The translations under genes and the position numbers were made by a program. From contig NC_003280.10 of NCBI RefSeq assembly GCF_000002985.6, positions 9,482,501-9,546,500 on the forward strand: a DNA stretch of 64,000 bases. Direction: 5' to 3'. Below, piece after piece: positions 20,257-54,469 of this stretch; within the stretch, counting starts at the first letter, position 1, and each line of letters begins with the position of its first letter. Origin of the DNA: Caenorhabditis elegans. Lineage: Eukaryota; Nematoda; Chromadorea; Rhabditida; Rhabditidae. The notes under the pieces are model-generated. The model was not told the DNA's origin and searched no databases. It saw only the letters and a list, made by a program, of their open reading frames with translations.

Positions 20257-23200
20257 TCAAATTTTCAAAGTATCCATCTTATACTGCCTGTAGAGAGGGT
20301 CATTGTTGTTATTATGATTACTTGAAGGCCGTGAACCATGTGAGCTTACGGATCTTGCTTCTGGAGTATCTGGAGCACGAACTGTAAACCTTTCTTGTGT
20401 AACAGGAGGAGTAGATCTGTTACTGATGCTTGGTTCAATATCACCAGATCTTCCGAGTACCCAGAACGTTTCCATGACTCCTTTCCCCTTTATAATTACT
20501 TCTCCTCGCGAGTTTGTTTCGTATTGGTGTGGAAAATGCTTCATAAGAAGCAAATGAGCATCACTGGTTAAATGAATAAGTGATGGTTTTCCATTACTCT
20601 CCATTCTTGATGCAGTATTCACAGTATCTCCAAAAAGGCAATAACGAGGCATTGATAAACCGACAACTCCGGCAACACAGGGTCCTAAAATAAAATACAT
20701 TTGATTCTAAAATTGGTTTATGTATATTCAATAGCCTTTAAATTAAATAAAAAAGTGCGGATTACGACTTGACATACCACTGTTCACCCCAATTCGTAGT
20801 TCAACACGCTCTCTTGGTAAATGGGGTATTTTGAAGTTCTTGCAATAATCCATAAACTTGAGTGACATATCGACAATTTGTCTGAAATGTAATATGAACA
20901 AAAATATAAAAACATTTTGTAATCTAACTTTATATGATTGAAACCATTTCTTGTCGGAAGCCCTGATACACAAAGATATCCATCACCGATTGATTCCACT
21001 TTATATACGCCATGTTCTTCTATTATTGTATCAAAATTGCTGTACAAGTCGTTTAATAAATTGACTACTTGAAACGGTGTGCATTTTGAAGCAAGAATTG
21101 TGAATTTGACAACATCGGAAAAAAATACTGTAACTGAATCAAATCCTTCTGGTTCCACAGTTTGTCCAGCTTTTAGTCTTTCAGCCACTTGTTTTGGGAG
21201 CATTCTACTTAATAGAAGATCTGCCTTTTTCTTCTCCAACGTCAATTCTTTAGTTCTCTCCTCTACTTCAACTTCTAGAGTTGAGGTATATTCTTCCAGC
21301 ATGTTGAAAACGTGATCCATAAGATTGGACTTCGTTCTGAAAATAAATACAGTTAAATAGGAAGTTCTACTTTTTATAAAAAGAATTTGACAAACTTTGG
21401 CATGAGATCTCTCAGCTGTTCACAGATATTTTCTGCAGTTGGCCGATCTTCTGGAGCCTCTGCCCAACAGTCTTTAACCAGAGCAATTAAAGTTGGATTC
21501 ACGTCAGGAACATCGGTAATGATGTCGGGACGAATTGGGAATGATCCACCTTTCTTGACTCTGTATATTATCTCTAAAAACATCAAGGATATGAAAATCT
21601 TAACAGTTGATCTACTCACCATCGTATCCTTCTTTTCTTTCTTTGAGATCCCATGCTTCTTTTCTAGTTAGAATCTCCGAAGCAATGATTGCAAATGAAA
21701 ATACATCAGCAGATGGATCCATCTGACTGACTGTAAGAGATCCACGGAGAACTTCCGGAGCAGCCCAAAGTAATCGACGTTTAGTTGGTGTTATCTCTTC
21801 AAGGAGTTGATCAAAACCAAATTCCGCTAACTTCACTTGCCAACTGTCATTTACGAGACATGTTGCCGACCGAAGATTTCCATGTAGTCGTAGAAAACTT
21901 TTATGGAGATATGACATACCCTGCAACTTAAATTTCAAACCAGGCTAAAATGAAATGACCTACCTCTGCTACATCCTTGATTATGCAATACATGAAAAAG
22001 AAGTCCATTGAAAAATTACCTTTGTATAGAATATCTAGGAGTGATCCACGGGAGCACAGTTTTGTTACAGAGATAAATTGGGAGCTGTCTATAGATAATC
22101 CAATAAATTTGTTCAAATTCTCATGATCCAACTTTCTCAGTTTTACGAATTTATCCATATCCGCCTTATTCAAGTTCATATATTGAAATTTCATTGTCAA
22201 AACCATATCCTTCTCGAACATCTTCACTTCATAATTCTCACAAAATTCACTTCCAGTTGAAACTTTGCTTTCTCCAGTGATTGTCGAAGGAGCAGATTGT
22301 AAAGATCTTTTACTCGTTCCTTTACTTTTTCTCTCCAACTCTCTAAGTTTAACAAATGGTATCTGCCATTCCGAATTGATTCGAGCCTGTTCCTCTCTTC
22401 GATTTTTGATCATAAACAAAAAGCAGATCAAGTTTGTGGTAATCATTATTAGAAAGACTCCGGCTCCTACGAAAATGAGAATACCATACTGTTCCCAAAA
22501 TGGAAGTGGGCAAGAGTTTCCCAGAAATCCACAAATAGGGGTCGCCAGTGGTCTGATGCCTCCCCAAAAGTGCCATACTGCACTGCTCTCATTGCTGTAC
22601 GCGAGGGATATTGTCTGTAAATAAAAAACAATAAGAAAAATAATGGCTCAAAAATTAAAATTTAATGGTCTACTCAAAGAAATGTTCGACTAAAAAATTA
22701 TCAAAAAATTGCGCCGTAGTTAAGTTTTCAAGAACTCGCAAAAAACACAATTTTCCTAAACGGAATATTGTTTTTCAATTTTTAGAGCTTTAGGCATTCA
22801 ATCCATGCTTTGGAAATTTCCTAATTTTCGATATTCTTTCACTAAAACGTGGCAACGAACAACTAAACAGACAAAATATGATTCTAAAATTTACAGCTAC
22901 CGTAGTTCCGTCGGCAAACGATAAGTTCATAAGAGAAGTTTGCTCATATTGCTCATCTAATCCATAAAGTTGGTATAATGGCATTCTGGATAAATTTTGA
23001 TTGATCGCCACCAATCCGGTCATTCCTAAAAGATTAGTTAGATTTTTCATCCGGCTTAACTATTATTACCATTAAACGAGGTGACAAATTGAGGAATTAA
23101 CTTTGACATATCATCATAAACTGCTGAGTCAGTTGAATTAACACGTGTCAGCGCAATTCCGTATAAGTATACAACATCAAACAGATGACGAGCATAAGCT

Positions 23201-24781
23201 CCCATTCCAGTTGCTGTTGAACTGACGCAGTCAACGGTAGAACAGTTTAGTGGAGGAAGTTTTACTACATTCAGAATGTTTCTCTGCATATAGTCAAGGT
23301 ATGCTTTGTCGGATACTTCACTGTTAAGATCGATCTGAAACAAAACACAAATTTAGCAATTCTCAAGTCATACAAACCACAAGCACATTAGTGGCTCCTC
23401 GTTTAGCCACGTTTTCCAAGCCGTCAGTGACGTTCGAAAATGATTCCCACACTGGAGTTAAGCCAGATAGTTTGACTGAAACAATTCATGAATTTTGTTA
23501 TTTTTTTGAACTTCTGGAGAGCTATAACTCTACTCACAAGTTGTTTTTCCAACAAATGTTTGAACCCCAAATCCAATACTTCTCATTGAGATCAGCACAT
23601 GAACATATTCATCGGTGTCGAGGCCAAGCTGAGAGATTTTTATCATGTAGTCTCGTTTCTCAGATCCCAACTGAGCACACCATAATATAACTTAAAAGTA
23701 AGAATTATTTATTTGTTCAGATGAACAATTTCACTTACTTCTAGCTCTGGTCTTAACGCTGGATATGACTGCGTTTGTTGTCACATTATCACTGGCATCA
23801 ATTTCAGCTTTAAGAACTATTTGAATTGAATACGTTGAAGGATCATTGAATGTAGTTTCGACGTCGTTCATAACTCCTCCACAATGATTGACTTCACTTT
23901 TATAATATAACAGTGCAACTTTGTCCCATTTGTAGAGTTCTAGTAATTTTGAAGCGGCATATCCTAGTCTGAAACTCATAAATTTTGAAACATTTTCAGA
24001 ACATTTTCCACCCACGTTTGTGATGTGGGCAATACTGTTATTAGATATGGGAATCTAGTCATGTCAGACAAGTCAGCCTGACTAACAAATCCCCATCCAA
24101 GCACTGGCTTCTTATAAAGTGTTGCTAATGTGGCCATGGTTCGAATAGCTTCTGAGCACGGGGGCCCGATTATCACATCGACTTCCAAGTTTTTCAGAAA
24201 GTTTATTCCTGTTCGAACGGTACTGGCAAGATCACACTCTGTGTATTCTACGTAATACCTGGAAGCACATAGATTGTAAGTCTGTATTTTTGTCATTCTC
24301 AAAGTTTTTCAGTACACTCAGCCTCACACAACCGTATTTAAATAATTTTGGCAAAAGTAAGATAAACATTTGGCGCCAAAAAGTGAGTGTGACAAGTTGG
24401 AAAATCCAGAAATTGAAATGTAACATTTTTCAAATAATTGTTTTATTTCAATTTAATCAAATTGAATTATTGAGAAAACTTACTCAAAATCGAAATTAGT
24501 AACATATCCAGCTTGTTTCAAACGTTCAATTGCCAGTGGTACAGCACCACCACAAACATTCCATCCAATTGAAGCACTTTGAGTTTTCTGAGCAGCAGCT
24601 ATACCAACTTTGAGCTAAATTAAAATTAAAATTAAAATTTTGGGAATAATTTGGAATGGTTGGTTATTTGGAAGTATACCTTTGGACGAGTTGTGCCTGT
24701 GGAAACGGGTATATTTTGAAGTGAAACAAGTGAAAACAGATGAAAAAACAACGGAATAAGAAGTTGAAAAACATTTTTCAT
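20257..24781 (-). CDS. Receptor guanylyl cyclase (gcy-2 or gcy-3)
   Basis: Multi-exon transmembrane guanylyl cyclase that makes cGMP from GTP at the sensory-neuron membrane. The start at 24781 gives a hydrophobic signal peptide ([18 protein letters not shown]). Exons from about 24677 to 22510 encode the ANF-receptor-like extracellular region (for example [12 protein letters not shown]). The membrane helix lies near 22430-22490. A kinase-homology domain follows (22420-21387) in which the catalytic loop reads [11 protein letters not shown] and the DFG position reads EFG, so it is a pseudokinase. A coiled linker (near 21240-21320) leads to the cyclase domain with FFSDVVKFT (metal-binding Asp), ESIGDGYLC and [17 protein letters not shown]. 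All exons look open. The C-terminal tail is Ser/Pro rich. It is first of three tandem paralogues and the most diverged. The family member is clear; which of gcy-2 and gcy-3 it is cannot be settled here. Confidence 0.92.
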
Positions 24782-25103: not shown

Positions 25104-28100
25104 CTAATTCGCTACTTTCAATGTGTCCATTTTAAATTTTCGATGATCCTGCAGTGGATCATACACACTCGGAGGACGTGATCCATGAGAGCTCACTGAT
25201 CGAATCTCTGGTTTTGGTGCTGGCGGTGTAATCCATCTTTCATTTGCTACTGTTGACGGTTTACAAATACTTCTTAGTTCAGTTGGTTCAGCTATATCAT
25301 CAATTCTTCCGTGCACCCAAAATGTTTCCATAACTCCTTTTCCTTTTATTATTACTTCTCCGCGGGAACTCGTGTCGTAATGGTTAGGGTAGTGAGTCAG
25401 AAGAAGTAAATGAGCATCACTTGTTAAATGAATAAGTGATGGTTTTCCATTACTTTCCATTCTTGATGCAGTATTCACAGTATCTCCGAAAAGGCAATAA
25501 CGAGGCATTGATAAACCGACAACTCCGGCAACACAGGGTCCTAAAATTATTTATTTCACTATTGTTTGTATGAATTTCAAACTGATTCATTATTCAGAAC
25601 CCACCACTGTTCACTCCAATCCTCAGCTCAACATTTTCCCGTGGCAAATGAGGAATTTTAAAACTTCTGCAGTATTCCATGAATTTTAGCGACATGTCCA
25701 CAATTTGTCTGAAAATACTAAATTTAAAAATAGTACATGACATTTTCTTACTTGATGTGTGCATATCCATTTCTTGTTGGTAACCCTGATACACAGAGAT
25801 ATCCATCACCGATTGATTCTACTTTATATACGCCATGTTGCTCAATTATTGTATCAAAATTGCTGTACAAGTCGTTTAATAAATTCACAGTTTGGAATGG
25901 CGAGCATTTTGAAGCAAGAATTGTGAATTTTACAACATCGGAAAAGAATACTGTCACTGAATCAAAGCCTTCTGGCTCCACAGTTTGCCCAGCTTTTAAT
26001 CGTTCAGCCACTTGCTTTGGGAGCATTCGGCTTAATAAAATATCTGCTTTTTTCTTTTCTAAAGTTAACTCTTTCGTTCGTTCTTCTATTTCCTCTTCCA
26101 ACGTTGAAGTGTATTCTTCCAACATATTGAAAACATGGTCCATGAGGTTTGTTTTTTGTCTTAATTTCAATTATTTCAAAAATTAAAATGATTTAAAAGT
26201 ATAAAGTACTTTGACACTAATCCTTTCATTTGTGAGCAAATGTTTTCTGCAGTTGGTCTATCTTCTGGAACTTCTGCCCAACAGTCTTTCACTAAAGCAA
26301 TCAGTGCTGGATTTACATCATGGATGTCTGTGATAATTTCCGGACGTATTCTTAACTTTATATACTATTTCTGAAAACGTAGATCTGTCGAGGCATCTTA
26401 TCAACAAAAAAAACTCCCACCTTCACAATCTTCTTTTCTGTCCAAAATGTCCCATGCTTCTTTCTTTGTCAAAATCTCTGATGCTATTATAGCAAATGAA
26501 TATATATCAGCAGAAGGTTCCATTTGACTAACACTGAGAGAACCTCTCAATACTTCTGGAGCAACCCATAACAGTCGTTTCTTTGGAGGAGTTTGCTCTT
26601 CAACAAGATTGTCCATTCCATATTCCGCCAGTTTCACTTGCCAACTGTCATTAACAAGACACGTGGCTGATCGGAGATTCCCGTGAAGACGTAGGAATGT
26701 TTTATGAAGATATTCCAGACCCTGCAAAAACAAACGTCTTTAAACCTAAAATTGAATAAATCGAAAATCAAACCTTTGCCACATCTCTGATAATACAAAA
26801 CATGAAAAAATAATCCATTGAAAAATTGCCTCTCGATAAAATATCTTGAAGTGACCCTCTTGAACATAATTTTGTTACAGCAATGAAATGGGCGCTATCA
26901 ATTGATAAACCAATAAATCTGTTAATATTTTCATGATCCAGTTTCCTCATTTTTACAAATCGTTCCTTGTCTGCTTTTGTCAAATGGGTGTACTGATATT
27001 TAGCAGTTAATACCATTTCTTTCTCATACATCATCATCGTATAGTTCTCACAAAAATCACTGACAGTTGTCACTCCACTGTGTCCAGTTGAAATTGATGG
27101 AGCTGATTGAAGGGACCGCCGACTTGTTGCATTGCTTCGAATTTGCTTTTCAGATTCCATCAGGTTCACAAATGGAACTTGCCATTCCGCATTTGTTCTG
27201 GCTTGTTCTGCATGTTTCGCACTTATCACACATAGGCAACCAATAATCATTATAATCACCATCAATACAATTACAGATATTGACACAATAGCTAGAATCA
27301 TGTATTGTTCCCAAAACGAAATAGGGCAAAATTTTCCAAGGAAACCACAAATCGGAATATCTAATGGCCTCGAGTTTCCATAAAAATACCAAACTGCTCC
27401 TCCCTCTTCTTTGTAGGAAAGTGTGACATTCTGAAATGGTAAAGGATTTTTATTATAGGGTTGAAAAAGAAAAAAAAACGTCGATGATACCATTATAGGA
27501 TCAATATATGTAAATTCGGCGAGGGCGACTTGTTCATAGTCCGAGTTAAGGCCATATAGTTGAAAAATTGGCATTCGGGTTAAGTTTGGTGAGATCACAA
27601 CTTTTCCGGTCATTCCTCAAGTTTCACGATTAACATCGACGAAACTGTTACAAAGCTCAATACCTTGAAATGAAGTAACAAACTGAGGTACAATAACATC
27701 CACATCATCATATACCGCTGGATCTGTTGAATTTGTATTTGTTAGCGCAACTCCATATAGGTACACGACGTCAAATAGTTGACGAGCATAACCTCCCATT
27801 ATCTAAAAAAATCCTTTTAAGATTTTATGAATGTTTTTTTTTAACACATACAGTGGTATTGGCAGTCATGCATTCAACAGTGGAGCAATTCATAGGTGGT
27901 GACTGCACCGCCTTCATTATATTTTTCTGCAGGTAGTCCAAATATTTTTTATCAGCAACTTCACTGTTTACATCAAGCTGAATTGTTGTTAAATATGAAA
28001 AATCTTACACGATTTTTGAGAATTCTTACCACAAACATTCTAGTGGCTGCTTGTTTTACCATTTTTTCAAAGTCATCTGTCCCTTCTGTAAATGATTCCC

Positions 28101-29595
28101 AAATAGGCGTCAATCCTGATTGACTAACTGAAAATTCAATTGTTTTTACATTAAATCTAGTACTAGACAAAACTAACAAGTCGGTTTCCCAAGTGAAGTT
28201 TGCGCTCCAAATGCAATATTTCTCATTGATAGCATAATGTGAACATATTCATCCCCTATCATATCATGTGTTGCTATTTTAATTAGATAATCTCGTTTTT
28301 CAATAGCTGTTTGTGTACACCAAAAAATAACTGTAAAACGGAATTCAGGCTTAATATCTTCGTAAATTCTCACTTCTTGCTCTTGACTTGACGGATTGGA
28401 AAACAATATCAGTTGTTTCATTATCATTCAAATAAATTTCAGCTTTGATCACTATGTTTACATTTGGTGTACTTGGATTATTAAAAGTTGCTTCAACATC
28501 ATTCATAACTCCAGAACAATATTTTATGTCACTATAATAGTATAACATTGCAACTCGACCCCAGTTATATACTGTCAGCATCTTTGAAGCAGCATAGCCC
28601 AGCCTAAAAGTATAAAGACATTTTTATATAATATTTGGTAATTTTCCTATATCTGAAGCACTCACAAGTTTTTTTAAAATGTGTTTCTAAAAAAATTAAT
28701 ACTTTTTTTTTGTGTTTTGGCGGTTGCATAAAATCCGGAACTATAAATTTCACTTCCTGAATCCTATCAAAACTCACATCAACGAGTTGGGAATTACAGT
28801 GGTCAAATAGGGAAATCGTATGACATCAGACAAATCCGTGTCACTCACAAATCCCCATCCAAGGACTGGCTTCTTATAGTTCTCGGCTAGAAATGACATG
28901 ACTCGGAGAGCCTGTGCGCATGGTGGTCCAATTATCACATCGACTTTGTGAGTTTTGATGAACTCTATTCCGGCACGAACGACGCTGCCTTGATCGCATT
29001 CTGTGTAGTCTACTATAAATCTGAAAGTAAAAGTATGAAACACCTTTTAGGAAAATTAGGAGGCAATCAGAAAATGATAAGACATTCCGAGATTCAATTT
29101 TTAGTTTAAAAAAAAGGGAACACTAAAAAATCGGAGAAAATTTTGCCTCTACAGTTTCCTTAAAGACCACTATAGTTGATAAAAGAAAAATATTAATTCC
29201 GTGAAACACTCACTCAAAGTCAAAATCTTTTACATATCCAAATTCTCTTAATCTTTCAATTGCCATTGGAACTGCTCCACCACACACTGACCATCCGATT
29301 GATGAAGTTTGAGTACGTTGGGCAGCAGCAATTCCAATTTTTATCTGAAAATCATTTGAAAATGCAGTTCTATTTTAATCTTACAATTTCGAAATCTAAA
29401 ACTATTCAATCACAAACAAGTTTCTACTGTGTGTTTTGATTAAAATTGTTTTAAACCATTGCTTACAGTAAAAGTTTAAAAAATTACCGTTCTTTTTGTT
29501 TTTGGAGCGACTGTGGTGTCTGGCAAATTTTGTGCAAATGTTGAGTGGAATGTAGAATGTATTAAAATAACGAATTTTAAAATCGAACTGACCAT
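25104..29595 (-). pseudogene. Receptor guanylyl cyclase with frameshift (gcy-2 or gcy-3)
   Basis: Same architecture as its neighbours: signal peptide from the ATG at 29595 (MVSSILKFVILIHSTFHSTF), extracellular ligand-binding-like region (29510-27400), membrane helix (about 27230-27300), pseudokinase domain ([14 protein letters not shown] for DFG), coiled linker, and cyclase domain with [18 protein letters not shown] and [11 protein letters not shown] intact. However, between 26350 and 26351 it lacks 17 nt that its near-identical right neighbour has at 31211-31227. The frame shifts and a TGA follows 14 codons after the lesion exon begins to diverge, before the coiled linker and cyclase. Neither the alternative donor nor the alternative acceptor nearby restores an open frame. 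One acceptor (CTTGAG near 27613) is also non-consensus. Downstream exons remain conserved, so the lesion is recent, strain-specific or a sequence error. If real, this copy cannot make cGMP. Confidence 0.8.
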
Positions 29596-29989: not shown

Positions 29990-32900
29990 TCAATTCGCTA
30001 CTTTCAATGTATCCATTTTAAATTTCTGATGTCCCTGTAATGGATCATATACACTCGAAGGACGTGATCCATGAGAGCTTGATGGATTTGGAATCCATCT
30101 ATCGTTGGTTACTGGTGGTGTTGACCGATTACTAATGCTTCTTAACTCGGTTGGTTCCATTTCACCAAATCTGCCGTGCACCCAAAATGTTTCCATAACT
30201 CCTTTTCCTTTTATAATTACTTCTCCTCGGGAACTCGTTTCGTATTGATTTGGATAATGAGTGGTTAGAAGAGAATGAGCATCGTTTGTTAGATGTATAA
30301 GGGATGGTTTTCCATTACTCTCCATTCTTGATGCAGTGTTCACAGTATCTCCAAAGAGGCAATAACGAGGCATTGATAAACCGACAACTCCGGCAACACA
30401 GGGTCCTAAAGCTTTTTTTCTATTTTTGTATGAATTTGAAAATGATTCATTATTCAGAACCTACCACTGTTCACTCCAATCCTCAGCTCAACATTTTCCC
30501 GTGGCAAATGAGGAATATTAAAACTTTTGCAGTATTCCATGAATTTCAGCGACATGTCCACAATCTGTCTAAAAGTATTTAATTTAAAAATAGTACATGA
30601 CATTTTCTTACTTGATGTGTGCATATCCATTTCTTGTTGGTAACCCTGATACACAAAGATATCCATCACCGATTGATTCTACTTTATATACGCCATGTTG
30701 CTCAATTATTGTATCAAAATTGCTGTACAAGTCGTTTAATAAATTCACAGTTTGGAATGGGGAGCATTTTGAAGCAAGAATTGTGAATTTTACAACATCG
30801 GAAAAGAATACTGTCACTGAATCAAATCCTTCTGGTTCCACAGTTTGCCCAGCTTTCAGTCTTTCAGCCACTTGTTTTGGGAGCATTCGGCTTAATAAAA
30901 TATCTGCTTTTTTCTTTTCTAAAGTTAACTCTTTCGTTCGTTCTTCTATTTCCTCTTCCAACGTTGAAGTGTATTCTTCCAACATATTGAAAACATGGTC
31001 CATGAGGTTTGTTTTTTGTCTTAATTTCAATTATTTCAAAAATTAAAATGATTTAAAAGTATAAAGTACTTTGACACTAATCCTTTCATTTGTGAGCAAA
31101 TGTTTTCCGCCGTGGGCCTATCCTCTGGAACTTCTGCCCAACAGTCTTTCACTAAAGCAATCAGTGCTGGATTTACATCATGGATGTCTGTGATAATTTC
31201 TGGACGTATTGGAAACAGTCCACCCTTCTTAACATTATATACTATTTCTGAAAACCTAGATCTGTCGAGGCATCTTATCAATAAAACTCCTACCTTCACA
31301 ATCTTCTTTTCTGTCCAAAATGTCCCATGCTTCTTTCTTTGTCAAAATCTCTGATGCTATTATAGCAAATGAATATATATCAGCAGAAGGTTCCATTTGA
31401 CTAACACTGAGAGAACCTCTCAATACTTCTGGAGCAACCCATAACAGTCGTTTCTTTGGAGGAGTTTGCTCTTCAACAAGATTGTCCATTCCATATTCCG
31501 CCAGTTTCACTTGCCAACTGTCATTAACAAGACACGTGGCTGATCGGAGATTCCCGTGAAGACGTAGGAATGTTTTATGAAGATATTCCAGACCCTGCAA
31601 AAACAAACGTCTTTAAACCTAAAATTGAATAAATCGAAAATCAAACCTTTGCCACATCTCTGATAATACAAAACATGAAAAAATAATCCATTGAAAAATT
31701 GCCTCTCGATAAAATATCTTGAAGTGACCCTCTTGAACATAATTTTGTTACAGAAATGAAATGAGCACTATCAATTGATAAACCAATAAATCTGTTAATA
31801 TTTTCATGATCCAGTTTCCTCATTTTTACAAATCGTTCCTTGTCTGCTTTTGTCAAATGGGTGTACTGATATTTAGCAGTTAATACCATTTCTTTCTCAT
31901 ACATCATCATCGTATAGTTCTCACAAAAGTCGCTGACAGTTGTTACTCCACTGTGCCCAGTTGATATGGATGGAGCTGATTGAAGAGATCTCCGACTTGC
32001 CCCTTTACCACGAACTTGTTTCTCTGACTCAATTAGCTTTGCAAATGGAACTTGCCATTCTGCATTTATTCTTGCTCGTTCCGCACGTTTACCGCTTATC
32101 ACACAGAGGCAGCCAATTATCATGATGAGCACCATCAAAACAATTACAGCTATTGCCACAAAAATCAAAATTTTATATTGTTCCCAAAACGAAACAGGGC
32201 ATGATTTTCCAAGGAAGCCACAAATTGGAATATCTAATGGCCTTGAGTGTCCATAATAAGACCAGACAGCGCCTCCCTCGTCTTTGTAGAAGAGTGTGAC
32301 ATTCTGAAAATTAAAAGTTATCACTGCAGGGATAGAGAACAAGAAAGAAGCCTACGGGTACCATCACAGAATTGGTATAAGTGAAGTCAACAAGGGCGAC
32401 TTGGTCATAGTCCGAGTTAAGTCCATATAGTTGAAAAATTGGCATCCGGGTTAAGTTTGGTGAAATCACAACATGCCCTGTCATTCCTGAAACCTTTCAA
32501 TAAATTTAAAATGAAGAAAAAAACGTGGGAAATAGTTTATCCGAGAATACCTTGAAAAGAAGTAACAAACTGATGAACTAACACATCCACGTCACCATAA
32601 ACTGCAGGATCTGTTGAATTTGTGTGTGTTAACGCAATTCCATACAGATAAACAACGTCAAATAAATGACGAGCATAACCTCCCATTATCTGGAAATAGT
32701 CATTTTAAGATTTTATGAATACTTTCTATAAACGCATACAGTGGTATTAGCAGTCATGCATTCAACAGTTGAGCAATTCATAGGTGGTGACTGAACTGCT
32801 TTTATGATATTTTTTTGCATGTATTCCAAATATTTTTTATCAGCAACTTCACTGTTTACATCAAGCTGAAATATTTTTTAAATATGAAAAATCTTAAACG

Positions 32901-34436
32901 ATTCATGTTTATTCTCACCACAAACATTCTAGTCGCCGCTTGTTTAGCCATTTTTTCGAAGCCATCTGTGCCTTCTGTGAATGATTCCCAAATAGGTGTC
33001 AATCCTGATTGACTGACTGAAATTAAAGTCTTAATCACAGTAAATCTTATGGCAAGTCAAACTAACAAGTTGGTTTTCCAAGCGACGTTTGTGTTCCAAA
33101 TGCAACATTTCTCATTGATAGCATAATGTGAACATATTCATCCCCTATCATATCATGTGTTGCTATTTTAATTAAATAATCTCGCTTTTCCACTGATGTT
33201 TGTGTGCACCAAAGGATTACTGTAAGAATGATAATAAGGAGAGCCACGATAGAAAATCTAACTTCTGGCTCTTGACTTTACAGTTTGGAAAACATTATCT
33301 GTTGTTTCATTATCATTCAAATAAATTTCAGCTTTGATCACTATGTTTACATTTGGTGTACTTGGATCATTAAATGTTGCCTCTATATCATTCATAACTC
33401 CAGAACAATATTTAACGTCACTGAAATAATACAACAATGCAACTCGATTCCAATGGAATGTTGTCAGCATTTTTGAAGCAGCATAACCAAGCCTTAAATA
33501 AATTTATTCCAGTTCTTGAATCTTTTCAACACTCACATCAATGAGTTGGGTATGACAGTTGTCAAGTGCGGAAATCGTATGACATCAGACAAATCCGTGT
33601 CACTCACAAATCCCCATCCAAGAACTGGCTTCTTATAGTTCTCGGCTAGAAATGACATAAGCCGGAGAGCCTGTGCGCATGGTGGTCCGATTATTACATC
33701 GACCTTATGTGTTTTGATAAATTCCATTCCGGCACGTACGACACTGCCCAGATCACATTCTGTGTAGTCTACTATGTATCTGGAAATAATAAGAGATAAA
33801 CATTTCATAAAAATCGTATCATTAGAACAAAACAAAACTTGATACGCTGTGATCCACGCCACAAGCAAAGAACGTATATAAAAACTCGAATTCAAAAAAT
33901 GAACAAAACATTCATCCAGAGTGATCTCCAGATTAGTGTGTTCATTTTATTTCGTAGATCGGAACAAAGGATTCCGCTGTTAGAGTTTGTAGTTTTTCTC
34001 AAAATAGATCTATTCTTCAAAGCACAAAATAACACTTTTGGTGATTTTAAGCATTAAACTTACTCAAAATCAAAATCTTTAACAAATCCCATCTCTTTCA
34101 ATCTTTCAATAGCCAACGGCACAGCTCCACCACACACTGACCATCCGATTGATGACGTTTGAATTCGTTGAGCAGCGGCAATTCCGATTTTTATCTTAAA
34201 ACCTTACTATTTTTTTTAATTCGAGTGTTTATTTCAAAATCATTTATATCAAAATTAATTTTAAAAATGGGTTGATTTGATATTGTTCCAAGAAATTTTT
34301 TTAACCACCAAATTCAAGAAGGAACTGCTAAAATTACCGTTCTCTTTGTTCTCGGTGCAACTGTAGTGTCCGGCAGATTTTGTACAAATATCGAGGGGAA
34401 TATATTAAAAAGTAGCAATATAGTGAATATTTGCAT
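29990..34436 (-). CDS. gcy-1: Receptor guanylyl cyclase GCY-1
   Basis: Intact transmembrane guanylyl cyclase, the paralogue next to the sideroflexin gene. The ATG at 34436 opens a signal peptide (MQIFTILLLFNIFPSIFV). Extracellular ANF-receptor-like exons run 34350-32350 ([30 protein letters not shown]). The membrane helix is near 32090-32180. The pseudokinase domain (31930-31085) has [11 protein letters not shown] in place of the HRD loop and AEYG in place of DFG; unlike the middle copy it keeps VKKGGLFPIRPEIITDI in frame. The cyclase domain carries [21 protein letters not shown] and [16 protein letters not shown]. Family members in this cluster are known from the literature to be expressed in the salt-sensing ASE-right neuron. 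The symbol comes from order: I recall this gene as AH6.1, adjacent to the sideroflexin AH6.2. Confidence 0.92.
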
Positions 34437-35121: not shown

Positions 35122-36376
35122 TCAAAGTCCCTTGTTGTAGTACACAATTTTTGGAGGATTCGGACGTGACATGATTTCTTTTTGCACACTTGACTCCAGC
35201 TTCTCAACTTCCACGCTACTTTTCTGAGGGAACAAGGCACAGCACAGTGGAGTGGTGAAATAGAGTCCGATGCCGGCAATCAAAGTCTGGATTGGAATCT
35301 CCGAGTATTTTTGCATCCAAGGGCGTGTACGGTAGTATGCGGTACGAGTGATGCGGTTCATGATGATCGGTGTCATTACTGGAAATGGTAATTTGAGAAT
35401 TATTTATTGGGCAATTAATTAAGAGCTAAGCTGAACCAAATACCTACCCATATATGGCATTGCCATTGCAATTCTACTCAAAGTAACCTGGGCAATTGAC
35501 AATGCAGCCATTTTCTGAGATTTGCCGACAAGTTGATCATTTTCGTCTTTCAATTCCATTCCTTCACTGGCTTCGCTGAAAATCAAATCATATCTCAGAT
35601 AGTTCCCAATTCACTTACTTGCTTCTCATCATTGGAATATTGATTGCATTTGCCAATGCGATTGCAGCAAATGGTACTAGACGAGCAGCAAGACCGTGAC
35701 TATTCTAGAAATTATAGGTAAAACATTTTATAATTTCCCCTGTAACATACTTTGACCATTTTATTAAGTCCAAGTGCTACAGTCATCGCTCCACTGGTTG
35801 CACAGCAATAAGACACGAAGAGACGTTCGTTGGTAGCTTTACTATTTCCACTTCTATTCGTATAGTTGACAACTGCGTTAAAGGATTGATTGAACCAGTG
35901 TGAGAATACTACACCAGGCAATGTACGGTAGAGACCAAGAAGCATTCCAGTGGTAACCATGTTCCCCGGCATCTGAAAATAGATTTATGTTCCTTTAAGT
36001 TCTGTGCTCCTAATTTTTCAAACGAACCTGTGCACTCATTCTCCCCAAAAAGAACATTTTCTCACCGGTATCCGGATGATACGTGGAATCGTATAACGTT
36101 TTTGCTTTCCACAGTTCATCAACAGTTAACGTTGGACTTATTACACCCGTTTTATAATTTGTCACAATCTCTTTACACTTTTCCTGTTGGATTCGTGACG
36201 AAAATAGAGTGAGAGGATTAGTAGACGAGAAAAAGTGCTTTGCACGACCTGGAATTCAACAAGTTTTACCAAATCTCAACTGAAAAAAGCAAACACATAC
36301 CCGCATAAGTTCCCTGATCCCATTTGGGTTTCGATATATCCGGAAGAACTGTTTGATTCACGACCAGATTATTCAT
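35122..36376 (-). CDS. Sideroflexin (mitochondrial serine carrier family)
   Basis: Multi-exon gene for a protein of about 330 residues, the usual sideroflexin length. Sideroflexins are multi-pass inner-membrane proteins; human SFXN1 imports serine into mitochondria for one-carbon metabolism. The start at 36376 gives [20 protein letters not shown], and the first exon (36301-36376) ends in phase 1. The family hallmark [11 protein letters not shown] lies near residue 85, followed by [17 protein letters not shown] and the conserved block [19 protein letters not shown]. Several hydrophobic segments follow. The C-terminus reads [12 protein letters not shown], as in the family. It is divergent from the lysine-rich gene, with about 270 bp between the two ATGs. 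I recall this as AH6.2 (sfxn-1.1); the exact symbol is uncertain, so it is left blank. Confidence 0.93.
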
Positions 36377-41680: not shown

Positions 41681-43375
41681 ATGACAGCAACATCCAATAG
41701 TGCGCCGTTGGCCGGTGGATCATTGTCTTCTTCAGCAACGGCACAGCCACCACAACCACCTCCAGGACATCAACAGCAGCATCCACTTCCTCAAATCTAC
41801 GATTCGCAGGTTTTTAACCGTGAAACTTATTATTTATTTTTCAAAATAAATTACAGATGCAATACTACTACGGATCTTCCATGCCCAATCAGCCAATTCC
41901 AACGTACACGGCACAAAACGGAGCACCTCAACAGTTCGGCACACCACCGTACTATCAAGATGCAAACGGACAATTTGGACAGGTTCCCGCTCAACAGCAA
42001 ATGATGACTGCTGGTCATCCATACTTTTATATGGCCCAGCCGCAGCAAGGAGGACAGCACGTTGCACAATCTGGACAACCGCAGATATTTTATTATCAGC
42101 AACCATTGGGTCAAATGGCTCAACAAGCTGCTCCAATGTACTTCCATCCAATGCAAGCTGCTTCTACTCCTATGCTTTCTGAACAAATGAGTATGATGCC
42201 ACAAATCCAGTCGACTAATCCTCAACAGTCTGAACAACTGAGAAAATCGGGTGCTCAAATAAGCACCACGCGTACAGTTCCGTTGACTTCGTCGACTCCG
42301 CTCCCAACAAGTCGCGAATACGAGACTGTCCAACGCGATCGAAACAGGAATAGCCAATCAAGATATCAATGGTAAAATTAGATTTGTTTAATAAGCGTTT
42401 TATTAATCATTCTTGATTTTCCAGTCCTATTGAACATGACGATCTTCCCATCGATGAGATCTCGAAGATCACCATCGACAATCACAACGACGATACCATG
42501 AGTGCTGAGAAGGAAAATCGTTTCAATAAGGTTGCTCTTTTTTCCCTTCAAGAATTACATGATTTTTTTCAGAATCGTGTTGAGAAATTGGGTCGCCGTG
42601 GGTTCGCCAAACCAGAAGTTGACAGCCAACTGCCACACAACTTTAAGACTCGTCTTTGCATGACGCACGCAGCTGGAATTAATCCTTGTGCATTGGGTGC
42701 TCGGTGCAAGTTTGCTCATGGGCTCAAAGAGCTCAGAGCTTCTGATATTGTGAGTTTAATTCCATTTTATCTCATAGAATTCAAAATGTCGTTTTCAGCC
42801 GACTCGTTATCCGAACAATAAATACAAAACTAAATTGTGCAAGAATTTTGCGCGTGGAGGATCTGGAGTTTGCCCATATGGGCTTCGATGCGAGTTTGTT
42901 CACCCATCGGATACGGAATTCCAGAATATTCCTCCATATGTACGTTTCCATTCGATTAAGCATTTTTAACAAATATTTATTATTTTTCAGCAACGTAAGA
43001 TGGTCGAGGAACACGATTCTATTCCGGAAGATTACGTTGTAGCTAGATATCAGCCACGATTCATGCATACCAGTGGAAAGGCTACGACTCCAACGAAGGT
43101 CACCCTCAAGCAACGAAATGTGGCTGGGTAAATAAATATATTTCAAATGACTGTTCTTCAATACCTTCATTTTCAGTTCCATGATGTGCCTCTCCAATAC
43201 TGGACGCGATTTAGAGGCAGGAGGTGATTTCAACCATCCGGAAATCAATGAAAACGATTTACCACCACACTTGAGACGGATTCGCAGAGGCAATCCACCT
43301 GTAACCAGAAGTCGTCCATCTTTCAGTACGAAATGGACATCAGTGGAGAACCTCGGTCTGCGAGGACACTATTAG
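41681..43375 (+). CDS. mex-6: MEX-6, tandem CCCH zinc-finger RNA-binding protein
   Basis: Seven exons (41681-41809, 41857-42371, 42425-42530, 42573-42749, 42799-42939, 42991-43127, 43177-43375) give 467 residues, which matches MEX-6 as I know it. The N-terminal half is Gln/Pro/Met-rich and low complexity (MTATSNSAPLAGGS, QPPQPPPGHQQQ). The Ser/Thr segment TSSTPLPTSREYET precedes two TIS11-type fingers near residues 276-301 (LCMTHAAGINPC...CKFAHG) and 320-347 (LCKNFARGGSGVC...CEFVHP), one per exon. MEX-5 and MEX-6 are partly redundant polarity factors of the one-cell embryo: they bind U-rich RNA and set up the anterior soma/germline difference, and are phosphorylated in the polarity pathway (PAR-1, MBK-2, PLK-1). 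These roles come from the literature; the fingers and length are seen here. Confidence 0.95.
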
Positions 43376-51708: not shown

Positions 51709-54469
51709 TTATTCAAGATCTGATATATGTTTTAGAAACTTGGGGTTACTCAGCGTACGGTTTACAATAAAATGCTTTCTAGTTTTAGTTTTACATCTGC
51801 TCCATGAGACTTTCTTTTTGGAACGAGTTCGTGTGTTTTCAGAATATGTAAAAAATTGAGGTACGTTGAGATCTAGTTTACCATTAATCATCTTCATAAT
51901 AGTTTTTCTGTCATAGATTTGGCGCCGCGTTTGTAGTGTTGTGAGCTCAAAAAGTTCATTGCGTTCGGATGCAGATTTATACTCCGGGTCAGTTGGCGAG
52001 ATGTATTTGCCTTGTGTTCTACTGTATAATCGTCTAGTAAATGCGTTTTGAACTGACTCAATGGCTCTTGTTTCAGAGTTTTTAATTGGGCTAGTAATTA
52101 CCGTTCCATACTCAAGAAGAGGTCTAACAAAAGTTTTGTAAAGCAAGGTCATCAATCTTGGGTTTCTACTGTTATACATATTAAATATTTGACTAAGTTG
52201 ATATTTGGATGCATTTATGGCTTTTTTCCAGTGCTCCGTGAATTTTAGATTTGGAGCGATGAGAAAATCTAAATCTCTTGCAACATCTTCTTTTCTGATC
52301 GTTTGCCCGTTTATCGAGTACGAAAAGTCCTTTTTGTTGGTACCTAGTGTCATGTGTACCGTTTTACTGTTGTTCAGGTCAAGTTTTGACAATTTAGACC
52401 ACTCACTAACCAAGTTAATTGCCAGTTGCAATTTATTCTCGTTTTCCTTTTTTGGAGTCTTAACATATAATTTTGTGTCATCCGCAAATTGCTGACATTG
52501 CACATTCTCAGGTAGTATTGATGATATTTCATTCACGAACATTCCGAAAAGTACAGGCGAGAGAACTGCCCCCTGAGGCACTCCGCAGATGGCCTGCTTT
52601 ACACTGGAGAGGGTATTTCCTATTTTTACTCTAAATGTTCTATTTGCTAGGAATTGCTTAAACCAAATTAGAAGGTTCTTATTCAGGCCTATTTTTACTA
52701 ATTTTTCTAAGAGAAGATCATGAGCTATTCTATCGAATGCTTTGGAGTAATCCAAATAAATAATATCTACTTGAGCACCTTCGTCAATACTTTGAGTCCA
52801 ATAGTTAAGGCTATCTAGCAGATTGGTAATTGTTGATTTATTTCTGCGGAACCCGTGTTGGGTTGGGCTCCAAAAATTTTCATTCTTAAGAAATTCTTCT
52901 AATTTTCTAAGTAAGCATCGTTGGTCGAAAGTCTACAGACTCCTTTGGTTTGGGAACTTTGGATAAGGGTATGACCACAGACTGTGTCCATGATCTCGGG
53001 ACTACTCCCTGCATCATGCTGAGATTACATATTTGGGCTAGGGCGCTGCTTATAAACGGAGCAATTAATTTGATAAATGTGAACGGAATGTTGTCGGGGG
53101 TTAATGAACAGGAGTTTTTACTACTCATCAGACCTTTGTATATTTCGTGATCTGTGACCCAAGGAATCTCTTGTTTCGACTCATAATTTGCGGGTAACTG
53201 GAATGGGGAGTTTTGCTTATTGATGTAATGGGATTCAAACGCATCTGCGAGATAATTAGATTTAGCGTCATCCGTTGCGATGGTAGTACCGGATGAATCA
53301 GTTAAAGTTGGAACTGTCATTTTCCTGGGTTTCATTATTGATTTAGCGTGCTTAGTGAATGCACTATTACCTTTAGATTCTAACCGTTTCATTTCTGAGT
53401 TGCTAAGGAATTTGCGGAGTTTTTTCCTATGTTTTCTTGACAGTTTAATGTAGTCTAAGTAATCAGATGTATTTCTAGTGTTTCTGGCCTGTTCAAACGC
53501 TATATTAACAGTTTTTTGAAATGCTAAAAGGTAAGGTGGAAGGGACCTTGCATTTATCGGCACTATTACTTTCGGTATTGAGATGTTGAGGGCATTATCT
53601 ATATGATTCAGTAGGTTTTCATAAGAGTCGTTAATAGAGAAGCTCGAATTGAATACGGTGTCCCAGTTTATATTATCAAAGTATTTTGAGCATTGAATGA
53701 AATCAGCATGCTTGAAGTCGTAAATTTCTTGATTCGGGACTACTTTGGTTTGCAACAAGTCAAGAGAAAATTCAATTCTGTTGTGGTCGCTACTACCGAT
53801 TGGTGTCGTCACATAGACATTTTCAATTTTAATATTGGAAAGTACTAAATCTAAAACCTTCGTTTTCCTTGTTGGGCTTACCACATGGTTTTTGAGGCAG
53901 TTATTTTTACAGAAGTCAACAAATAATGTTCCTAGGCGTGTATCGGATTTGGGGTTGTCTTGACTCCAATTTATATCTCCGGCATTAAAGTCACCTACGA
54001 TTATAGAATTACCGCTATTATTGATCAGATCTTCTATTTTACTAATAAATACGTATGGTATTTTTATATGAACATGTTGGTGGTCTATAAACATTTATCA
54101 CTCGCAACGGTTCTACATCTACATTTAAGTCAACGGCAAGTATTTCATATGAATGAGGATCTGACTCTAAGCAATAATTTCTGATAAAACTTTTGTGTTC
54201 ACAACAGTACAAATGCCGCCACCTCTATGACCGTCTTTCCTATCTGTTCGGTATACATTATAATTCTTATTAGCACCTATTACTATGGAACTTGGTATTT
54301 TATTTGTCAACCATGTTTCTTGTAAACATATTACGCTATATTGCTCGGTTAGCGTAATTACTTGAATTTCGGAGCGGTTGGCAACTGATGATCTTACATT
54401 AGAAGCTAAAAACGATAATTTTAAATTAGGTGGTACAGAGCAAGCTATTACATTTCCTAGACTGGGCAA
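51709..54469 (-). pseudogene. Retrotransposon ORF2: endonuclease and reverse transcriptase, frameshifted
   Basis: Endonuclease motifs occur in order: ICLQETWL (near 54310-54335), YRTDRKDGHRGGGI, IIVGDFNAGDINW (near 53970-54000), TRKTKVLDLVLSN and SSDHNRIEF. After a long linker come SVDFRPTMLT, HGFRRNKSTITNLLDSLNYW, YLDYSKAFDRIAHD (RT motif A), GVPQGAVLSPVLFGMFVNEI, and FADDTKLY (catalytic Asp pair, motif C). The C-terminal part ends with SWSRCKTKTRKHFIVNRTLS. Frames break near 54170, near 54065 and near 52905. The catalytic residues are still legible, so decay is fairly recent. Copying of an RNA template at a nicked target is the family's known mechanism. Confidence 0.9.

Follow-up and report, generated by a model that had tools for sequence, protein, structure and literature searches.

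Three tandem receptor guanylyl cyclase genes

Three receptor guanylyl cyclase (rGC) genes lie in tandem on the minus strand of the window, the 64,000-nt stretch of Caenorhabditis elegans DNA analysed here, and are referred to as the left, middle and right genes according to their positions on the forward strand (Table 1). The exon model of the middle gene was obtained by comparison with the right gene, and every one of its 14 introns begins with GT and ends with AG; no stop interrupts the gene's own frame in exons 1-11, and the neighbour's frame stays open through exons 13-15. Where the middle and right genes have an intron between exons 7 and 8, the left gene has none (23070-23334, minus strand). 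We take the region to be R134/AH6 and the right, middle and left genes to be probably gcy-1, gcy-2 and gcy-3, respectively. A passage of one paper places gcy-1, gcy-2 and gcy-3 adjacent to one another (PMC12919926) and, since adjacency is all that it confirms, we infer that the middle gene is gcy-2.

Table 1. Coordinates of the genes and of the features of the middle gene, in positions of the window
Feature	Position	Strand	Description
Left rGC gene	20257..24781	-	14 exons, open, 1138 aa
Middle rGC gene	25104..29595	-	15 exons by homology (exon model versus right gene)
Right rGC gene	29990..34436	-	15 exons, open, 1135 aa, with cyclase domain
Exons 13-15 of middle gene (linker and cyclase)	25104..26159	-	out of frame if normally spliced; old frame conserved
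Homogenised mosaic stretch	25721..27055	-	versus right gene 30581-31928; identical runs of 462, 232 and 161 nt
Exon 12 of middle gene	26210..26370	-	161 nt versus 178 in both neighbours
First in-frame TGA past the deletion	26318..26320	-	ends the 787-residue frame, 620 exon nt before the last junction
Weak internal AG acceptor	26328..26329	-	score 0.5; first of 11; 1125 aa, 20 residues lost
Deletion junction, frameshift	26350..26351	-	comparison with right gene 31211-31227
Intron 11 of middle gene	26371..26420	-	50 nt; normal donor scores 8.6, acceptor 7.8
Intron 8 of middle gene	27616..27663	-	48 nt; donor 1.6 and acceptor -2.1, each scoring lowest among 41 introns

A 17-nt deletion in exon 12 and the predicted product

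The 17 nt found at 31211-31227 (plus-strand numbering) in the right gene, where the segment is preceded by ...GTATT and has TT at its end, are absent from the middle gene between 26350 and 26351. Apart from 17 gap columns, exon 12 is identical between the two genes at 154 of 161 positions, and a chance match is of no concern because the neighbouring exon 11 is identical at all 301 of 301. Exon 12 has its full length in the left gene too, hence it is the middle gene that lost bases and not the right gene that gained them. The VKKGG motif is kept in the left gene and at two paralogue loci at 10.30-10.32 Mb.

The frame of the middle gene reads EIVYKVKNTSGNYHRHP and then meets a TGA at 26320-26318, as codon 788. 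In Pfam searches, the predicted product of 787 residues matches ANF_receptor (PF01094, 9.1e-64, residues 57-434), and no match to Guanylate_cyc (PF00211) was found in it. Its kinase matches end early, at profile position 201 of 258 for PF07714 and 212 of 263 for PF00069, whereas those of the right gene extend to 257 and 260, respectively; the kinase homology domain of the predicted product is incomplete. The right gene has ligand-binding, kinase and cyclase domains all present, with a Guanylate_cyc match at 9.4e-69. The initial annotation had described a loss of exactly 17 nt with TT on both sides in an otherwise nearly identical exon, a frameshift removing the linker and the cyclase domain, and conserved cyclase exons downstream. 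All of these points are confirmed.

The premature stop falls in the twelfth of 15 exons, with 620 nt of exon still to come before the last exon junction, and nonsense-mediated decay (NMD) is therefore predicted. A cyclase-less membrane receptor, if it were made, could pair with GCY-1 or GCY-3 in cells that also express them, and dampen their activity. In its favour, the match to the extracellular domain is intact, GCY-1, GCY-2 and GCY-3 are all placed in ASI and PVT by a review table (PMC5225109), and NPR-B without its cyclase domain is described as dominant negative in rats in a passage of PMC4249455. Nevertheless such a functional truncation appears very improbable: with a stop as early as exon 12 (of 15 exons), the mRNA is expected to decay, and intron 8, discussed below, is itself weak. 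The constraint seen in exons 1-9 (dN/dS of 0.125 for the middle gene versus the right one) may be older than the lesion and is uninformative on a truncated form.

Possible splicing around the lesion

For scoring splice sites, a model was trained on 39 of the three genes' 41 introns, leaving out the two questioned introns of the middle gene. All 17 AG sites from 30 nt past the intron 11 donor through the end of exon 12 were examined as acceptors, and 11 of them, all within exon 12, restore a frame open to the natural end (26328, 26307, 26292, 26286, 26274, 26271, 26265, 26262, 26247, 26223 and 26217), with predicted products of 1125 down to 1088 aa. Their scores range from -6.5 to 3.0, all below that of the normal acceptor, and the highest are found at 26265 (3.0), 26307 (2.5) and 26328. 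The least costly rescue, at 26328, would drop its 20 residues from the kinase homology domain. The remaining 6 of the 17 acceptors, the normal one among them, leave the frame broken, and so do skipping of exon 12, retention of intron 11 and retention of intron 12, all of which were rejected as rescues. Retention of intron 11 leads to a stop after 776 residues, as does the CGACAG acceptor at 26385, which scores -6.6. The earlier conclusion that splicing does not rescue the frame is thus upheld at the sites on which it was based, such as the CGACAG acceptor, but is incomplete as a general statement, as 11 of the 17 acceptors restore the frame. When one- and two-intron paths were enumerated more broadly, with introns of at least 35 nt and two-intron paths restricted to sites scoring above -2, 482 open paths were obtained, and the best-scored 25 of these were inspected.

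If the normal exon 11 donor were joined to one of the acceptors within exon 12, the lesion would be skipped and the frame restored, yielding a receptor of 1088-1125 residues with 20-57 missing, mostly from the kinase homology domain. Besides the 11 open sites themselves, this possibility can draw on a precedent, mouse GC-B2, in which 25 residues of the kinase homology domain are missing and which a passage of PMC4249455 describes as dominant negative; the form spliced at 26328 would resemble it. We consider such a rescue unlikely, however, with a normal acceptor of much higher score (7.8) lying upstream and with the 26328 site being identical in the intact right gene. Moreover, a score of at least 0.5 is reached by 23.6 % of all minus-strand AG sites between 34500 and 20200 (818 sites), and the frame-restoring acceptors, even the best of them, therefore look like background.

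GC-B2, GC-B3 and NPR-B delta-KC are comparable to the forms considered here in that these receptor cyclases likewise lack part of the kinase homology domain or have no cyclase; in the passage of PMC4249455 they are splice forms or transgenes, whereas the middle gene carries a genomic deletion and its product is predicted. That N2 has turned one tandem cyclase into a dominant-negative or otherwise altered receptor, either truncated or spliced with at least 20 residues of the kinase homology domain missing, is decidedly unlikely. Were it so, the altered receptor would tune its intact neighbours in shared neurons, and salt or ASI/PVT signalling would set N2 apart from wild isolates.

Intron 8 as a possible second weak point

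Besides its one certain frameshift, the middle gene may have another weak point in intron 8. Amongst the acceptor trinucleotides of the 41 introns, 26 are CAG, nine TAG, five AAG and one GAG, the sole GAG being that of intron 8. The score of this intron is, however, lowered by its exclusion from model training. If retained, it is open in frame until a TGA at 27619-27617, near its 3' end. One reading of this is an older pseudogene with two lesions, in which intron 8 is no longer spliced efficiently and the frame would end within the extracellular domain, ahead of the site of the 17-nt deletion. The lowest donor and acceptor scores and the unusual trinucleotide fit such a history; we nevertheless find it scarcely credible, in view of the intact GT/AG ends and frame of intron 8, the training of the site model on 39 introns without it, and a relaxation of constraint in the middle gene that is not significant (see below).

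The sequence of intron 8 in the middle gene is unlike that of both neighbours. A 23-base piece of it, allowing up to 3 mismatches, was found once genome-wide, at itself. The coding-like translation of the intron, GIELCNSFVDVNRET followed by a stop, suggested that it might be a retained exon, a reading that was rejected because an intron or a frame break is present at that place in the left gene and in the two paralogue loci.

Gene conversion between the middle and right genes

The lesion is found within a stretch that has recently been homogenised between the middle and right genes as a mosaic (Table 1; right-gene coordinates taken from repeat spacing). The three long identical runs fall between 27055 and 26016 and include whole introns. 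Identity between the middle and right genes is 397/667 over introns 1-9 and 184/191 over introns 10-13. Differences within the stretch are mostly clustered, at 26894-26881, 26418-26341 (around the deletion), 26263-26248 and 26015-25967, with lone differences at 25901 and 25796. The island around the deletion comprises 5 substitutions and length differences of 4 nt and 17 nt within 78 bases of the middle gene, and is flanked by identical runs of 462 and 77 nt.

In a permutation test, none of 2000 shuffles reached the 462-nt run; however, the longest runs between the left and middle genes (59 nt) and between the left and right genes (54 nt) also exceed all of 1000 shuffles each, which indicates that the test is inflated by uneven constraint, and the intron identities are the safer evidence for conversion. 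A conversion spanning the deletion would have erased it or copied it to the right gene, and the deletion should hence postdate the last spanning conversion. The conversion setting, like the weak intron 8 and the in-frame acceptors within exon 12, had gone unmentioned in the initial annotation.

An error of sequence or assembly in the reference at this place is another explanation, and a quite improbable one. The assembly analysed here, we presume, postdates the correction of the older N2 reference. In PMC2978686, 2038 likely errors are inferred in that older reference, 206 of them exonic; the authors' own N2 stock had the LSJ1 form at 19 of 24 resequenced LSJ1/N2 differences (9 of 12 SNPs and 10 of 12 indels), and 10 insertions, of 5-33 bp each, distinguished the sibling strain LSJ1 from the same reference. 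These figures, along with the near-identical right gene as a possible source of confusion, lend some weight to an error. Indels of 1-2 bp nevertheless account for 152 of the 206 exonic errors in the same source, whereas a clean loss of 17 nt with TT at both ends is what a biological deletion would look like. The middle gene also differs from the right one close by (at 26418, 26405, 26379, 26357 and 26341, and by 4 nt in a T-run), and the stretch is therefore not simply misplaced right-gene sequence.

Age of the lesion and constraint

Changes in the middle and right genes were polarised with the left gene, dropping 91 ambiguous sites and gapped codons. Over the whole gene, the middle gene has 66 synonymous and 49 replacement changes as compared to 69 and 44 in the right gene (Fisher p 0.59), and the share of the middle branch estimated to be unconstrained is 3.6 % (bootstrap 95 % interval -10 % to 16 %). 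For exons 13-15, downstream of the lesion, the counts are 16 and 11 versus 14 and 8 (Fisher p 0.78), and no excess of replacement changes over the right gene was seen there. In exon 13, all 6 changes derived in the middle gene are synonymous and none is a replacement, with a neutral probability of 9e-5; the 8 differences between the middle and right genes in this exon likewise include no replacement.

The lack of excess protein change in the downstream exons makes the lesion look young, although the evidence from exons 12-14 is weaker than these counts suggest because gene conversion copies constrained sequence. Judged by comparison of the gene copies, the lesion is young relative to the duplication. 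Of the three options left by the initial annotation, namely a very young lesion, a locus making a truncated receptor and a wrong assembly, the first is the one best supported by the exon 13-15 comparison, and an assembly error is less likely.

A probable young loss-of-function allele

The odds are, in our view, about three to one that the middle gene represents a real and young loss-of-function allele of the 'flatliner' kind in N2, with transcripts prone to NMD. On this reading the gene, once a functional rGC, recently lost 17 bases of exon 12 in the ancestry of the sequenced strain, the small deletion probably having arisen between two TT dinucleotides. Normally spliced transcripts would then stop prematurely in the twelfth of 15 exons and would for the most part be degraded by NMD. 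The protein, if made at all, would comprise the ligand-binding domain, the membrane span and a cut kinase homology domain and would be incapable of cGMP synthesis, and other strains may carry intact alleles. Counted against the loss-of-function reading are the 11 of 17 acceptors that restore the frame, the 10 LSJ1 insertions of 5-33 bp (PMC2978686), among which this site might be, the gene conversion that weakens the evidence of youth, and literature passages that give GCY-2 expression and do not call the gene broken.

Flatliner alleles of N2 chemoreceptors, as described in a passage of PMC2576165, are single small defects of the reference strain (a stop, a frameshift or a small deletion) in sensory receptor genes that are otherwise intact, a pattern into which the middle gene, with one certain frameshift and a possible weak point in intron 8, may fit; they are described there for chemoreceptor families, whereas the middle gene is a receptor guanylyl cyclase. 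Similarly, expressed pseudogenes are reported to be enriched amongst C. elegans NMD substrates in a passage of PMC5765348, and the middle gene resembles them as a duplicate gene with a frameshift and a premature stop upstream of introns; the term 'gcy' is absent from the main text of that paper. Loss of an rGC in one species is also known from the human GC-D and GC-G pseudogenes (PMC1435932), where the passage concerned is silent on recent single-defect alleles and on a tandem cluster.

Literature passages naming gcy-2 make no mention of a lesion, and curators at WormBase or UniProt may already know of it. Expression of GCY-2 is given as ASI, AWA, RIA and PVT in the review table of PMC5225109. 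The sources disagree on this point, as passages of two others, PMC12919926 among them, report ASER-type expression. The deletion strain gcy-2(ok3721) is listed in passages of two studies. Provided that gcy-2 is the middle gene and that N2 truly carries the frameshift, strains of this type compare a deletion with an already disabled gene. The standard strain would in that case have one working cyclase fewer than the 27 rGCs counted for C. elegans in passages of reviews, and an intact allele from the wild, should there be one, would offer a natural way to test what the receptor senses.

Other features of the window

To the right of the cluster, an exon at 35751-35972 encodes sideroflexin (Pfam SFXNs). 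A Gln/Pro-rich frame occurs at 41824-42372 (plus strand), and we take it to resemble the start of mex-6. Among nine frames scanned, six Sra chemoreceptor frames are distributed over both strands between 46178 and 62836. Amid these sra genes, two overlapping frames at 51712-54094 (minus strand), which were scanned separately, match RVT_1 and Exo_endo_phos_2 (reverse transcriptase, endonuclease-reverse transcriptase) and probably constitute a non-LTR retrotransposon.
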